The translations under genes were made by a program, and so were the position numbers. 9,774 nt of DNA, taken from an uncultured Bacteroidales bacterium. GTDB lineage: Bacteria > Bacteroidota > Bacteroidia > Bacteroidales > Bacteroidaceae. Below the pieces are notes generated by a model that worked only from the letters and a program-made list of their open reading frames with translations, was not told the DNA's origin and ran no database searches. The stretch covers positions 1 through 9,774 of the forward strand of contig CAMBWV010000015.1 of the NCBI GenBank assembly GCA_945871755.1, in the 5' to 3' direction. Of the stretch, positions 3,994 through 9,774 are shown one piece after another (the first letter of the stretch is position 1; every line of letters begins with the position of its first letter).

Positions 3994-4030
3994 GAGGCGC
4001 GCAGGCAGCCCCAGCCAGCTGATGGATTAT

Positions 4031-4124
4031 CTAGCAGTTCTAGAAATTCTAGAGATTCTAGAGATTCTAGAAAACCTAGAAATTCTAGAAAATCTAGAGA
4101 TTCTAGAAAATCCAGAGAGTCCAG
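4031..4124. repeat. 9-bp tandem repeat array phased on CTAG
   Basis: CTAG occurs at exactly 9-base intervals at 4031, 4040, 4049, 4058, 4067, 4076, 4085, 4094 and 4103, then CCAG at 4112 and 4121. Typical units are CTAGAGATT, CTAGAAATT and CTAGAAAAT. The consensus is nearly self-complementary (AATTCTAGAATT-like), so either strand could form many alternative hairpins. It lies between the GH2 terminator and the kinase start. Because the unit is 9 bases, all copies read in one frame (E-N/I-L repeats on +, S-R-I/F on -), which creates false open frames. Function unknown; a protein-binding iteron or a slippage-prone leader are both possible. Confidence 0.9.
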
Positions 4125-4213
4125 CCCCCAGCAGCATCTCCGCTCCGCTGAAAAATCCCAGCCTTTCGCTGAAAATCCTTGGCAAGCAGCAAGAAATTAC
4201 CCAAATTTGCAAT

Positions 4214-6265: not shown

Positions 6266-6693
6266 ATGAGAAAGTTCTCCTTCATCCTTCTTCTCGCCGT
6301 CCTGCCCCTGACACTCAGTGCCGACGATGCCGTTTCGGGGCTGGTCATCACGAAGACCAACGACGAACGCGTGGAAGTGGCCAGGGCGGCGGTGGCAGCA
6401 GCAGCTCGAGCATCGGTTCGGCCTCGCAAGGCTACTACCTAGGCAGCTCGCCCTCCAGCTGCAACACCAGCGGCGAAGCCATCTGCACCTACCGCTTCGA
6501 GAAGAACGTGAGCAACAGCCTCTCGCTCCTCACAGCCCCCAACCTCGGCACAGGCAGCATCACCATGAAGCAAGGAACCAGCGAACCTACCTCAGCCAGC
6601 ATCATCGTGAAGAGCACAACCGACACGCCCGTCTTCTGGATTACCCCCGAGGTCAGCACCACGAGCACAGCGGCCACAGTCACGTCAAAATAA
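6266..6693 (+). pseudogene. Small exported Ser/Gly/Thr-rich protein, apparently split by a one-base frameshift
   Basis: The ATG at 6266 begins a clear signal peptide (MRKFSFILLLAVLPLTLSA, then DDAVSGLVITKTNDERVEVA). In that frame, translation becomes an Ala/Arg run with a stop at 6440-6442. The -1 frame carries a more protein-like sequence from about 6382: a GGGGSSSSS linker, then YYLGSSPSSCNTSG, CTYRFEK and a Thr/Ser-rich tail, ending at TAA 6691-6693. Joining 6266-6382 to 6382-6690 gives about 142 residues. The pattern fits loss of one base near 6375-6400, either a real mutation or a sequencing/assembly error. The VITKTN-type segment resembles the start of many small secreted Bacteroidales proteins of unknown function; no domain was recognised in the C-terminal part. 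As written, the gene encodes only a 58-residue product. Confidence 0.6.
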
Positions 6694-6735
6694 GGCCCAT
6701 CCGCAAGAATGCCATAGCCTAGAAAAGGGGGCATA

Positions 6736-6821
6736 GGTAGTTTTTCTATGAAATCAGCTTGCGATGTATTTACGGCTATCGTGTCGTAAACACATCGCAA
6801 GCTGATTTTTTAGAAACTACC
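6736..6821. mobile_element. Palindromic element A (short MITE-like relative of element B)
   Basis: An imperfect inverted repeat of about 30 bp pairs 6736-6767 with 6792-6821, including a perfect 17-bp block (6751-6767 with 6792-6808, AAATCAGCTTGCGATGT). A nested stem TTTACG (6769-6774) / CGTAAA (6785-6790) lies in the loop. The ends read GGTAGTTT...AAACTACC. Its left half aligns with element B: 6746-6788 matches 8057-8098 in 37 of 43 columns, sharing AGCTTGCGATG and GGCTATCGTG at the same spacing. It has no coding capacity and no target-site duplication is visible. As RNA it would form a long hairpin with a T run and might terminate transcription from the genes upstream. Confidence 0.7.
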
Positions 6822-7022
6822 CTGAAATGAATATCAAGACCGCGCATCAAGACCGCCATCTATCAAAGGTAACCATCCGAAAGCAGCCGACTTGCGCCTA
6901 AAATTGACCGTTTCAAGAATCCTATGCTCAAGCTCAACCACTTTCGTTAAGCCCGTTTCATTGGTGAGAAATGTACCGCACCTTGCTTGCAAGGTGTGAG
7001 TACAGACGAAGCCCGTGATACA
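6822..7022. other. Intergenic stretch with one REP-like hairpin and no recognised gene
   Basis: No gene is recognised here. The only structure I can support is a REP-like copy at 6969-7003 (ATGTACCGCACC...), whose core CACCTTGC (6979-6986) pairs perfectly with GCAAGGTG (6989-6996) across TT. Related copies lie downstream of the three-gene module at 8536, 8597 and (inverted) 8718. Several frames are open for 40-60 codons but resemble nothing known to me. Confidence 0.6.
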
Positions 7023-7150
7023 CACAGTTTCATCCTATGAAACTCACAGTTTCATCCCATGAAACGCACAGTTTCATCCTATGAAACTCACAGTTTCATC
7101 CCTTGAAACACACAGTTTCATCCCATGAAACTCACAGTTTCATCCTATGA
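7023..7150. repeat. 22-bp tandem dyad array (5 full copies plus a partial)
   Basis: Units start at 7023, 7045, 7067, 7089, 7111 and 7133, the last cut after 18 bases. Each contains the dyad GTTTCAT-ccy-ATGAAAC with 7-bp arms and a 3-base loop; unit four has one arm mismatch (CTTGAAAC). Units differ mostly at one loop base and at the last base. A 22-bp period is close to two helical turns, so the dyads would lie on the same face of DNA, as expected for cooperative binding. The array ends about 200 bases upstream of the promoter-like box of the DUF3791-like gene. Function unknown: operator array, nucleoid-protein site or structural repeat. Confidence 0.88.
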
Positions 7151-7329
7151 CCTATTCCTTGAAACAATATACGCGCTAAATATCAGAAGGTTAGAAAAAT
7201 CTTCCAAGATTCACAGATTGCTCCTCTGCAGAAGTATTTCTTGTGGACAGACCAAATCTGCTTACAAACTACCTACCCCCGCATCTACTCCTTCATTGAT
7301 TTTTTACAAATCGGCTAGACAAATAAAGA

Positions 7330-7356
7330 TTGTATGCTTTTCTTTTTGTACTTTTG
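7330..7356 (+). promoter_or_regulatory. Bacteroidetes-type promoter for the DUF3791/DUF3990 module
   Basis: TACTTTTG at 7349-7356 matches the Bacteroidetes -7 consensus TAnnTTTG exactly and lies 33 bases before the ATG at 7390. A weaker TTG at 7330-7332 could serve as the -33 element, although the spacer is somewhat short. The surrounding DNA is A+T-rich. Confidence 0.5.
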
Positions 7357-7389
7357 TTGGCAAACAATAAGCATAGGATAAATGACAAC

Positions 7390-7605
7390 ATGAATAGCAA
7401 TAACATCGATTTCATAACTTACTGCATCGGCAACCTCGCACGCCGATTAAACATGAGTGCCACAGAGGTGTATCGTCGCCTGAAGCAATCAGACATCCTG
7501 AATGGGTATATCATACCCAGTTACGATGTGCTCCACACCTTTAGCAAGGAGTATCTTATGGAAGACCTCACCGAATACATGAGGGAGAAAGGAGTGTTGG
7601 CATAA
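7390..7605 (+). CDS. DUF3791-like small protein
   Basis: A 71-residue cytoplasmic protein. It resembles DUF3791: an N-terminal helix (NIDFITYCIGNLARRLN), then MSATEVYRRLKQSDILNGYIIPSYDVLHTFSKEYLMEDLTEYM, with the characteristic YxVLHTxxxEYxxxDxxEY pattern. The ATG at 7390 is chosen because the family-like sequence starts there and the promoter-like box lies just upstream; an in-frame TTG at 7330 would fall inside that box. The TAA stop shares its last A with the next ATG (TAATG), so it is coupled to the DUF3990-like gene. In other Bacteroidales these two families are commonly adjacent (from memory). A partner or antitoxin role for the DUF3990 protein is inference. Confidence 0.78.
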   Translation: MNSNNIDFITYCIGNLARRLNMSATEVYRRLKQSDILNGYIIPSYDVLHTFSKEYLMEDLTEYMREKGVLA

Positions 7606-8099
7606 TGAAAGTATATCACGCATCAACTGTTGTCGTGGAATCTCCCGACACAAAGCATAGTCGAGCTTTCCTTGATTTCGGCCCAGGATTCTATGTCACC
7701 ACCTTACAAGAACAGGCTGTGAAATATGGAGCACGCTTTACCTATCGTGGCAAAGAAGCCTTCCTCAACACCTACGAACTTGCTGATGACCTCAGCCAAT
7801 GGAGAATCATTGAGTTCAAGCATTACAATGAAGCATGGCTTGACTTCGTCACAGAATGTCGTCGAGGGAAAATCATTGGTGACTATGATATAGTTATTGG
7901 CGGCATAGCCAACGATAAAGTATTCCGTACCGTTGACCTCTATTTTGCAGGCGACATTTCAAAAGAGGAATGCCTTCGTCGCCTTATCTTTGAGAAGCCC
8001 AACAACCAGATTTGCATCCGCACGCAGCAGGTACTCAACGAATGTTTAGGTAGGTTCTATAAATTAGCTTGCGATGGATTTTTGGCTATCGTGCCGTAG
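7605..8099 (+). CDS. DUF3990-like (ADP-ribosyltransferase-fold-like) protein with element-derived C-terminus
   Basis: A 164-residue protein resembling DUF3990, which I recall as part of the ADP-ribosyltransferase superfamily. Visible motifs are VYHAS at 3-7 (compare the YHG[TS] of that fold), FGPGFYVTT at 25-33 followed by LQEQAVKYG, a central EWLDFV-like segment (AWLDFVTECRRG), and PNNQICI at 132-138 carrying Q135. No signal peptide or TM segment is visible. The native sequence appears to end at L148; residues 149-164 (GRFYKLACDGFLAIVP) are encoded by inserted element B. Without the insertion the gene would end IFKSSQRL and stop, at 156 residues, overlapping the next ATG. The fold motifs precede the junction, so the protein may still work. 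Catalytic activity and target are unknown; a toxin-like role is inference from fold and gene arrangement. Confidence 0.78.
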   Translation: MKVYHASTVVVESPDTKHSRAFLDFGPGFYVTTLQEQAVKYGARFTYRGKEAFLNTYELADDLSQWRIIEFKHYNEAWLDFVTECRRGKIIGDYDIVIGGIANDKVFRTVDLYFAGDISKEECLRRLIFEKPNNQICIRTQQVLNECLGRFYKLACDGFLAIVP

Positions 8100-8237
8100 G
8101 TTTTTGTTTTCCATGAAGGAGCGTAGCGGGCTACGTGACTGAATGAAAAACAAAAAGATACGGTGCGAGAGGCGGAAAGACATCCAAGCCAAATAGAAAC
8201 ACCAACCAACCTTTGAAACTAATTTATAGAACCTACC
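8049..8237. mobile_element. Palindromic MITE-like element B, 189 bp, inserted in the DUF3990-like gene
   Basis: Perfect 19-bp terminal inverted repeats, GGTAGGTTCTATAAATTAG at 8049-8067 and its exact complement at 8219-8237, bound the element. The trinucleotide TTA flanks it on both sides (8046-8048 and 8238-8240), as a target-site duplication would. Inside is a second inverted repeat, TTTTTGTTTTCCAT (8101-8114) with ATGAAAAACAAAAA (8142-8155 region), extended by CCGTA (8094-8098) / TACGG (8159-8163). A central 6-bp stem CGTAGC / GCTACG sits at 8122-8135. There is no transposase gene, so any movement would need a transposase supplied in trans. Removing the element plus one TTA restores the host reading frame and an ATGA overlap with the downstream gene. 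It shares its left half with element A at 6736. Confidence 0.85.
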
Positions 8238-8263
8238 TTAATCTTCAAAAGTTCTCAACGCCT

Positions 8264-8485
8264 ATGAATACTATGCACGATGAAGCCTACCATGCAATAC
8301 TGGAGGCAAAGTACGCACGAATCATCAACGAGATTAGCGAGATGCACAGCGTGAGCCTTGAAGAAGCCATGGATATTTTCTACAATTCTCCGCTTCTGCC
8401 CCTTCTCGAAGAAGGCATTGCCGACCTTCATTGCCGAAGCGAGAAATATTTGGCAGACGAAATTTGGCGAGAACGAGAACAATAA
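8264..8485 (+). CDS. Small acidic partner protein of the DUF3791/DUF3990 module
   Basis: A 73-residue, mostly helical, acidic protein (MNTMHDEAYHAILEAKYARIINEI...). Its EEAMDIFYNSPLLPLLEEGIADLHCRSEKYLADEIW region resembles the small DUF3791-related third gene often found behind DUF3990 genes; this assignment is from memory. The ATG at 8264 is preferred over an upstream in-frame TTG at 8213 because 8213-8263 is partly element B and because the ATG would overlap the ancestral stop of the preceding gene (ATGA at 8264-8267). Today the preceding stop lies 164 bases upstream, inside element B, so coupling is lost and expression may depend on readthrough or on a new junction promoter. Confidence 0.72.
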   Translation: MNTMHDEAYHAILEAKYARIINEISEMHSVSLEEAMDIFYNSPLLPLLEEGIADLHCRSEKYLADEIWREREQ

Positions 8486-8498
8486 AAGAATCATCAAG

Positions 8499-8620
8499 AA
8501 GGCGTGAGTACGGAGTTCGCACTCATTGCTAATACAATGTACCGCACGTTGCTTGCTCTAAGGTGTGAGTACGGAGTTTGTTCTCATTGAAAACGCAATG
8601 TACCGCACGTTGCTCGCAAC
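8499..8620. repeat. 61-bp direct repeat, two copies, each containing a REP-like sequence
   Basis: AAGG(C/T)GTGAGTACGGAGTT begins at 8499 and again at 8560, and AATGTACCGCACGTTGCT begins at 8536 and again at 8597, so the period is 61 bases. The two units differ mainly in the middle. The second unit continues into the left arm of the inverted repeat at 8597-8718. The repeat lies just downstream of the small partner gene. Confidence 0.8.
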
Positions 8621-8718
8621 GTGTGGCTCCGCGCAATATGGAAGATTTACCTATATAATAAGGCGGAAACAATCCATTGTCCGCGGAGCCACACGTTGCA
8701 AGCAACGTGCGGTACATT
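8597..8718. repeat. REPIN-like inverted pair of REP-like hairpins between convergent genes
   Basis: Arms of 37 bases at 8597-8633 and 8682-8718 are complementary except for one position, with a 48-base A+T-rich spacer. Each arm is itself a hairpin: CACGTTGC-TC-GCAACGTG on the left, and the same core with a TT/AA loop on the right. The pair sits between the stop of the small partner gene (+) and the stop of formate-tetrahydrofolate ligase (-), a usual location for REP doublets and a possible bidirectional transcript end. No T run follows, so I do not call a rho-independent terminator. A related single copy lies at 6969-7003. Confidence 0.85.
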
Positions 8719-8734
8719 TCATGGCAATGAGCCG

Positions 8735-9774
8735 TTAACTCAGACCGACAATCTCGCCGTCCACGTAGTCAATGTGGTTGGCTTGCGGGTCGCGGGGCAG
8801 GCCAGGCATGCGGAGGATTTCGCCAGCTATGGCTACAATCATTTCGGCACCTGCATTGAGGACAACGTCCTTGATTTGGATGCGGAAATTCTTGGCCACG
8901 CCGTATTGCTTGGCATCGGCAGAGAAGGAGAATTGCGTCTTGGCTATGCAGACGGGGAAGGCTGACATACCGTGGGCTTCGGCCAGGCGGATGCGGTTGA
9001 GGGCAGGCTTGGCGAAGTCAACACCTTCGGCACCGTAGATTTGCTGGGCCACACGCTCAATCTTGCGCTGGATGGTGTCGTCGTCGGCGTAGGTGAAGGC
9101 GAGGGGCTGCGAGGGATGCTTCTCGATGGTATCAACCACGAGTTGCGCCATCTCCACTGCGCCTTCGCCGCCCTCGGCATAGGCATTGTTGATGACGAAG
9201 GGCAGACCGAGTTCGGCCTCGCAGTGGTGGCGAAGCAGGGCCATCTCTTCATCGGTGTCCGTGGCGAAACGGTTGAACACGACGACTACGCTCTGTCCAA
9301 ACGAGCGAAGGTTCTGCACATGGCGGTCTAGGTTTTCAAGGCCCTTGCGCAGACCATCCATGTTGGGTTCCTTGATAGCGTCGAGGGCCACGCCGCCGTG
9401 CATCTTCAGGCCCTGTGCGGTGGCCACGATGACCGTGAGCGCAGGTTGCAGACCGCTCTTGCGGCAGAGGATATTGTAGAATTTCTCAGCGCCGAGGTCA
9501 GCGCCGAAGCCCGCCTCCGTGATGGTGTATTCGCTATGGCTGAGGGCCATCTTAGTGGCCAGGAGCGAGTTGCAGCCGTGGGCGATGTTGGCGAAAGGTC
9601 CGCCGTGAACCACTGCGGGCGTGTTTTCGGTGGTCTGTACGAGGTTGGGCTGGATAGCGTCCTTGAGGAGCACCATGATGGAGCCTGCCACGCCCAAGTC
9701 GCGAACGGTAAAGGGCTTTCCCTCGTAGGTATAGCCCAGCAGGATGTTTTCAATGCGACGGCGCAGGTCGGCCT
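8735..9774 (-). CDS. fhs: Formate-tetrahydrofolate ligase, C-terminal 346 residues (5' end outside window)
   Basis: A cytoplasmic enzyme that joins formate to tetrahydrofolate with ATP, giving 10-formyl-THF for one-carbon metabolism. The frame is open to the window edge, and in-frame sequence upstream of the TTG at 9697 ([25 protein letters not shown]) fits the family, so that TTG is not a start. Recognisable blocks are [84 protein letters not shown] and the C-terminal [18 protein letters not shown]. The family is normally about 555 residues, so roughly 210 are missing beyond 9774. The gene is convergent with the accessory genes, and its stop lies 16 bases from the REPIN-like repeat. No frame disruption is visible. 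Confidence 0.96.

Follow-up and report, generated by a model that had tools for sequence, protein, structure and literature searches.

Coding sequence lent to host genes by short mobile repeats is known from several bacteria. In-frame fusions of miniature inverted-repeat transposable elements (MITEs) with genes are described for RPE of Rickettsia, ERIC, the 168-bp repeat of Yersinia and Correia/NEMIS, with TA at the termini of several of these families (PMC2229807). Here we compare with them a 189-bp hairpin element at positions 8049-8237 of a 9,774-nucleotide stretch of contig CAMBWV010000015.1 from an uncultured Bacteroidales bacterium (the whole stretch is called the window), where it forms the end of a DUF3990 gene in a candidate phage-defence operon. 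The likeness lies in a size of about 100-200 bp, the lack of autonomy, the stem-loop transcripts and the intragenic fusions giving protein residues. The window family, set apart by description, differs in its 19-bp GGNNNGTTCTATAAATTAG ends, a 4-bp TNNA duplication and its hosts.

Within the Prevotella lineage, PINSR is an intergenic repeat of 188 bp in Prevotella intermedia/nigrescens, present in 177 copies in one strain and in 184 in another; its authors state that it has no terminal inverted repeats and is distinct from MITEs (PMC4755523). Compared by description only, PINSR and the window element share this lineage and are near-equal in length (188 vs 189 bp), which makes PINSR a possible relative, whereas the perfect 19-bp repeats of the window element stand against its reported lack of inverted ends. 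A literature search for the letters of the end and apical motifs, with figures, supplements and most subscription papers outside its scope, returned nothing related. MITEs, including a minisatellite-bearing one, have reportedly been found in another Bacteroidales species, Porphyromonas gingivalis. For other MITEs the donation of a protein tail has been described before; the host range of the present family is wider than the initial annotation of this locus suggested, and the family is widespread and apparently little described.

We regard the element with high confidence as a non-autonomous MITE which inserted into the 3' end of the DUF3990 gene; its movement very likely depended on a transposase that is provided in trans and makes a 4-bp A/T-rich target duplication. 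It is short, occurs in many copies, carries inverted ends and no transposase gene, belongs to a family with a target duplication, and its site is empty in relatives. The features concerned are the following.

8049..8237, forward strand: 189-bp hairpin MITE copy, one of 18 full-length copies in its own genome (this one included), with a predicted RNA fold and 194 bits under model R1, whose training set contains this copy itself
8049..8067, forward strand: left terminal inverted repeat GGTAGGTTCTATAAATTAG, no mismatch to the right repeat
8219..8237, reverse strand: right terminal inverted repeat, pairing with the left one at 19/19 positions
8045..8048, no strand: left target-site flank TTTA; the family duplication is 4 bp (TNNA), and the native loci L062 and L063 read GAATGTTTA at the site
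8238..8240, no strand: right target-site flank TTA, which lacks one base of the 4 bp that are the rule in the family
7605..8099, forward strand: DUF3990 gene (gene B), PF13151 at 156 bits, PDLC04438 (PDC-M13B) at 175 bits, fold match 9r35; ART clan, RES-toxin-like predicted fold
8049..8099, forward strand: element-coded tail GRFYKLACDGFLAIVP and stop TAG, absent from 120/120 best homologues (of 453)

The open reading frame (ORF) of gene B runs into the element, which supplies codons 149-164 (16 residues) and the stop. With the native part of the protein as query 67 loci were obtained, and the flanks of the window were placed one by one, not joined beforehand, on seven of them, the nearest relatives of full length (L058-L064, with proteins 80-89% identical). 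In all seven the left flank ends and the right flank starts at codon 148.0 of an uninterrupted 156-residue gene, whose stop codon shares the sequence ATGA with an ATG of the third gene (gene C). A second in-frame ATG lies some 30 bases upstream of this one in six of these loci, which leaves the true start of gene C uncertain. A protein search gave 453 homologues, and the C-termini of the best 120 were compared: 119 have 156 residues and one has 157, and neither GRFYK nor the element-coded tail occurs in any of these 120. The best homologue, P0001, has 156 residues and is 97% identical over 90% of the query; its C-terminus reads NECLIFKSSQRL, i.e. IFKSSQRL.

The initial annotation had described a small, precisely inserted non-autonomous element, bounded by perfect 19-bp inverted repeats and flanked by TTA on each side, which donates a stop codon and 16 residues to the gene, replaces a native IFKSSQRL ending and, by removing a native ATGA overlap, leaves the third gene uncoupled by 164 bases. 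It had proposed to look for the empty site, for other copies and at the C-termini of homologues, and these searches, now made, agree with the description throughout as far as the ends, the ORF, the junction codon, the native ending, the overlap and the distance are concerned. Neither of the outcomes that it had named as refuting was observed: the seven closest relatives carry an empty site, and the element peptide is the ending of none of the best 120 homologues. The role of TTA has to be revised: it is present on both sides, but it is three bases of the 4-bp family duplication and not the true unit.

This follows from the flanks of other copies. Equal 4-bp flanks occur in 10 of the 18 full-length copies of the own genome, compared to 1.6 expected from swapped flanks, and equal 3-bp flanks in one, compared to 2.3 expected, i.e. 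at chance. The site reads TNNA, with T as first base in 17 and A as last base in 16 of these copies. In the relative G075, 22 of 30 copies have identical 4-bp flanks (2.7 expected), and in copies from other genera a 4-bp duplication is found in 11 of 18 (1.0 expected; one of the misses lacks the right flank). Short forms of 61-106 bp in G075 have a perfect 4-bp duplication in six of eight cases, and long 258-bp forms in one of two. The 4-bp duplications together with the uninterrupted relatives are an argument for insertion of the element.

The own genome (1.63 Mb, 67% complete, 350 contigs) gave 56 matches to the 189 bp, the full-length ones at 81-100% identity; several matches stop at contig ends. 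The window copy codes no transposase, and the sole listed ORF (at least 50 amino acids) fully inside it has 50. At both ends of the 18 own copies two frames stop within six codons in 35 of 36 entries, and the remaining third frame is open for 3-59 codons. Starting from either end of the window copy, a stop follows within six codons in two of the three frames; from the left end the remaining frame stays open for 16 codons. According to an ORF scan several copies adjoin ORF starts and stops a few bases away, and in a few other own copies an ORF stops exactly at the element junction. At locus L004 (732-919) a copy lies between two divergent ORFs, which start 4-5 bases from its two ends.

Beyond the own genome, the 189-bp query matched 17 of 61 genomes (own included), all of the same genus. 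The 19-bp end with up to two mismatches occurs in 24 of 58 genomes of the genus; G075 has 195 and 201 such hits on the two strands, compared to 2 in all for the reversed control. High loads of the end motif were also noted in G013 (233/244 hits on the two strands) and G031 (110/82). When at most one mismatch was allowed, 4 of the 393 genomes searched from the order, the own one among them, had the end, and a looser end pattern was present in 6 of 16 genomes reached via the loci of relatives. Subfamilies can be told apart by their outer bases (GGTAG, GGGGT, GGGAT, GGTAT, GGTGG), which are as a rule identical at both ends. A covariance model built from 18 diverse, hand-chosen copies matched 154 of the 399 genomes searched in the bacterial family, spread over 22 of 30 genera, a count with rough E-values and no shuffled control, which is why its hits were checked by other means. 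For this purpose 28 loci (L324-L351) were fetched, 18 of them from other genera; the latter copies measure 185-201 bp and have 0-2 mismatches in their 19-bp ends. Since the search scored six candidates per genome under strict filters, copy numbers and absences are inexact. Twelve stretches from other genera, mostly picked around hits, contained eight copies, and no copy was seen in another three stretches of G779, each of 20 kb. The small non-autonomous element of the initial annotation stands, as a member of a family wider than had been suggested. Plasmids and phages searched with the 189 bp gave no match, and the exact 19-bp end was absent from the viral contigs searched; a degenerate end occurs in eight viral contigs, one of them with a second end at element distance. 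In the viral-collection contig IMGVR_UViG_2600255111_000002 (L321) a degenerate end pair lies 173 bp apart at 1621-1793, with another end at 9049.

The second characteristic feature of the family is its hairpin. The predicted RNA fold of the window copy has -83.2 kcal/mol (z -11.5), and its tip is formed by the following stem.

8121..8136, forward strand: apical stem GCGTAGC-GG-GCTACGT of the hairpin; the five pairs of the helix are 100% paired in 18 copies and 3/5 are changed on both sides

Changes on both sides of this stem are present in other genera too. Among the 18 diverse chosen copies, 35 of the 54 predicted pairs carry both-side changes that preserve pairing, and 92.2% of the cells are paired compared to 79.9% after shuffling (0 of 500 reach the observed value) and 41-48% after sliding. 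For the 18 copies from other genera a consensus fold to which no structure was supplied gives a similar hairpin, with 28 of 49 pairs changed on both sides; one must keep in mind that these copies were selected by the covariance model and lean towards its hairpin. In the window copy about 30 nucleotides of one arm are unpaired, and a right-hand unpaired stretch recurs in the consensus folds.

The gene that received the tail lies between two others.

7390..7605, forward strand: DUF3791 gene (gene A), PF12668 at 91 bits, PDLC04434 (PDC-M13A) at 101 bits
8264..8485, forward strand: third operon gene (gene C), PDLC04443 (PDC-M13C) at 124 bits; ATGA overlap in seven natives

The best PADLOC matches of the three adjacent genes are M13A (101 bits), M13B (175 bits) and M13C (124 bits); weaker matches join gene B also to M13A and M10A, and gene A also to M13C models. 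By these best model matches and the adjacency of the genes the operon matches a candidate phage-defence module, PDC-M13, for which 3324 occurrences in rumen data are given in PMC13356809. The window shares the three genes in kind, but gene C is separated from gene B by the element. Genes A and C show no detectable likeness to each other (BLASTP E 0.09). DUF3990 has been placed in the ART clan (PMC7955679) and found in the C-terminus of a Serratia Rhs protein (PMC4524185). A structure model of the native protein, with a predicted local distance difference test (pLDDT) of 94, has RES toxins of toxin-antitoxin pairs as best fold matches (E 7e-4, template modelling score, TM-score, 0.47). With the RES-domain toxins 9r35 and 6fkg (PDB) the identity is about 10% at TM-scores of 0.40-0.47, and only 9r35_A reaches E <0.001. 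An ART-clan domain with an ART-like, toxin-like fold is therefore predicted. Residues 148-155 form the last strand of the native model (block pLDDT 97-98). In the model of the chimera the strand is kept by element-coded residues, with a pLDDT of 93 in block 141-150, 65 in block 151-160 and <50 in the last six residues.

Taken as a mechanism, the MITE would have entered the last codons of the DUF3990 gene and duplicated a 4-bp A/T-rich target, probably moved by a DDE-type transposase acting in trans. The first element-coded residues, GRFYKLA, are predicted to replace the native terminal beta-strand, so that the protein may still fold. In the window the ATG of gene C follows the preceding stop after 164 nucleotides, with the hairpin in place of the native overlap. 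Such a hairpin in the operon mRNA would uncouple the third gene, and it may serve as a site for processing or stabilising the transcript. For the MITEs of Neisseria, stem-loop transcripts have been proposed as RNase III targets (PMC2229807), which makes mRNA processing between genes B and C a reasonable guess. No intrinsic terminator was found by a scan of 7300-8740, and promoter-like sites number four there, compared to 2.5 expected. An outward promoter made by the element end was considered and dropped because several ORF starts lie only 2-11 bases from an element end.

Several observations weigh against the picture of a MITE moved in trans that lends protein ends to its hosts. The duplication is imperfect in the window copy itself (4-bp flanks TTTA vs TTAA, one base off), which is one of 8 such cases among the 18 own copies. 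In an ORF scan (at least 70 amino acids) the window copy alone among the 18 adds residues to an ORF, and in G075 two of 30 copies lengthen ORFs, both of them short (74 and 99 amino acids). The tail of the chimera is modelled with low confidence, and the alignment may bias the prediction towards the native strand. The covariance model, with its rough and uncontrolled count, found no match in 245 of the 399 family genomes, including G061 and G080, which are 99% complete and of the same genus. Moreover, a transposase bounded by the element ends was not found at 67 loci from five families. PF13701 is present in 0 of 9 genomes, PF01609 in 4 of 9, PF05598 in 13 of 58, PF13612 in 18 of 58 and PF13586 in 2 of 18; the ends were looked for at 30 of 32 PF05598, 30 of 114 PF13612, all five PF01609 and two PF13586 loci with flanks of 1.5 kb. 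As 30 of the 114 PF13612 matches were fetched, with these flanks, a partner could be missed, and draft assemblies often lose repeated elements. A 185-bp MITE near one transposase (L167, again as L287) proved to be a separate MITE and not the partner. Inspection by eye, without a family scan of the ORFs, revealed no obvious transposase in thirteen stretches of G004 and G031 that surround lone or widely spaced ends. An IS5-type partner, suggested by similar ends and a 4-bp duplication, gains no support from the fetched PF05598, PF01609 and PF13586 loci, which are without the ends.

Could the locus be explained otherwise? An assembler that crossed repeat copies and fused two loci might produce such a junction, and an assembly of 350 contigs with several matches at contig ends gives some reason to ask; both flanks, however, belong to one native operon and meet at the same codon in seven of seven relatives, so that a chimeric assembly is unlikely, indeed scarcely credible. 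It is also improbable, if less so, that the element is a structured noncoding RNA gene or a regulatory element kept at useful places, its mobility being incidental or past. Compensatory changes along a long hairpin across genera would suit such a role, as would the several copies that have an ORF start or stop only a few bases away. Yet insertion is shown by the 4-bp duplications and by the uninterrupted relatives, duplications also occur in the short forms (61-106 bp, 6/8), and an Rfam search of positions 6500-9000, which include the window copy, gave no match at E up to 1.

Two further alternatives concern how the hairpin is kept and what it does to its host. Template switching can equalise the arms of a quasi-palindrome, and this speaks for correction from arm to arm at the DNA level instead of selection on an RNA or DNA hairpin; the roughly 30 unpaired nucleotides in one arm of the window copy and the recurrence of a right-hand unpaired stretch in the consensus folds argue against it, and we consider this explanation possible but rather doubtful. 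We hold equally tentatively to a wider proposal: a single hairpin MITE superfamily with GGNNNGTTCTATAAATTAG ends and a 4-bp TNNA duplication would pervade the bacterial family, its hairpin kept by compensatory evolution as a functional RNA or single strand, its open end frame offering a ready-made terminal beta-strand and stop at gene 3' ends, and PINSR could be one of its branches. There is a nearly even chance that the insertion merely breaks the module, the protein tail being junk and the third gene silent. The replaced native strand and the lost gene overlap point in this direction, whereas the three genes are still open and match PADLOC models, and the same strand is predicted for the element-coded tail.

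Other repeats are found in the window. A short relative of the element lies upstream of the module.

6743..6816, no strand: degenerate short sibling of the element (inverted pair I4); 6744-6788 is an 87% match to element bases 7-50

The same sub-terminal motif occurs in both arms of this sibling. A 22-bp unit (CACAGTTTCATCC.ATGAAAC) is repeated in tandem about six times at 7016-7147, also upstream of the defence module, and a second, REP-like palindromic repeat (GTACCGCACGTTGC) is found on both sides of the module at 6970-6998, 8536-8564, 8597-8642 and 8673-8718. A 9-bp tandem repeat at 4022-4125, near the start of a 495-residue ORF, codes for LEILEILEN-type repeats.

At this locus, as uninterrupted relatives show, a mobile hairpin has rewritten how the coding sequence of a candidate defence protein ends and has removed the overlap within its operon. 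The defined end motif is a handle for finding the transposase, for testing whether the hairpin acts at the RNA level and for re-examining PINSR.
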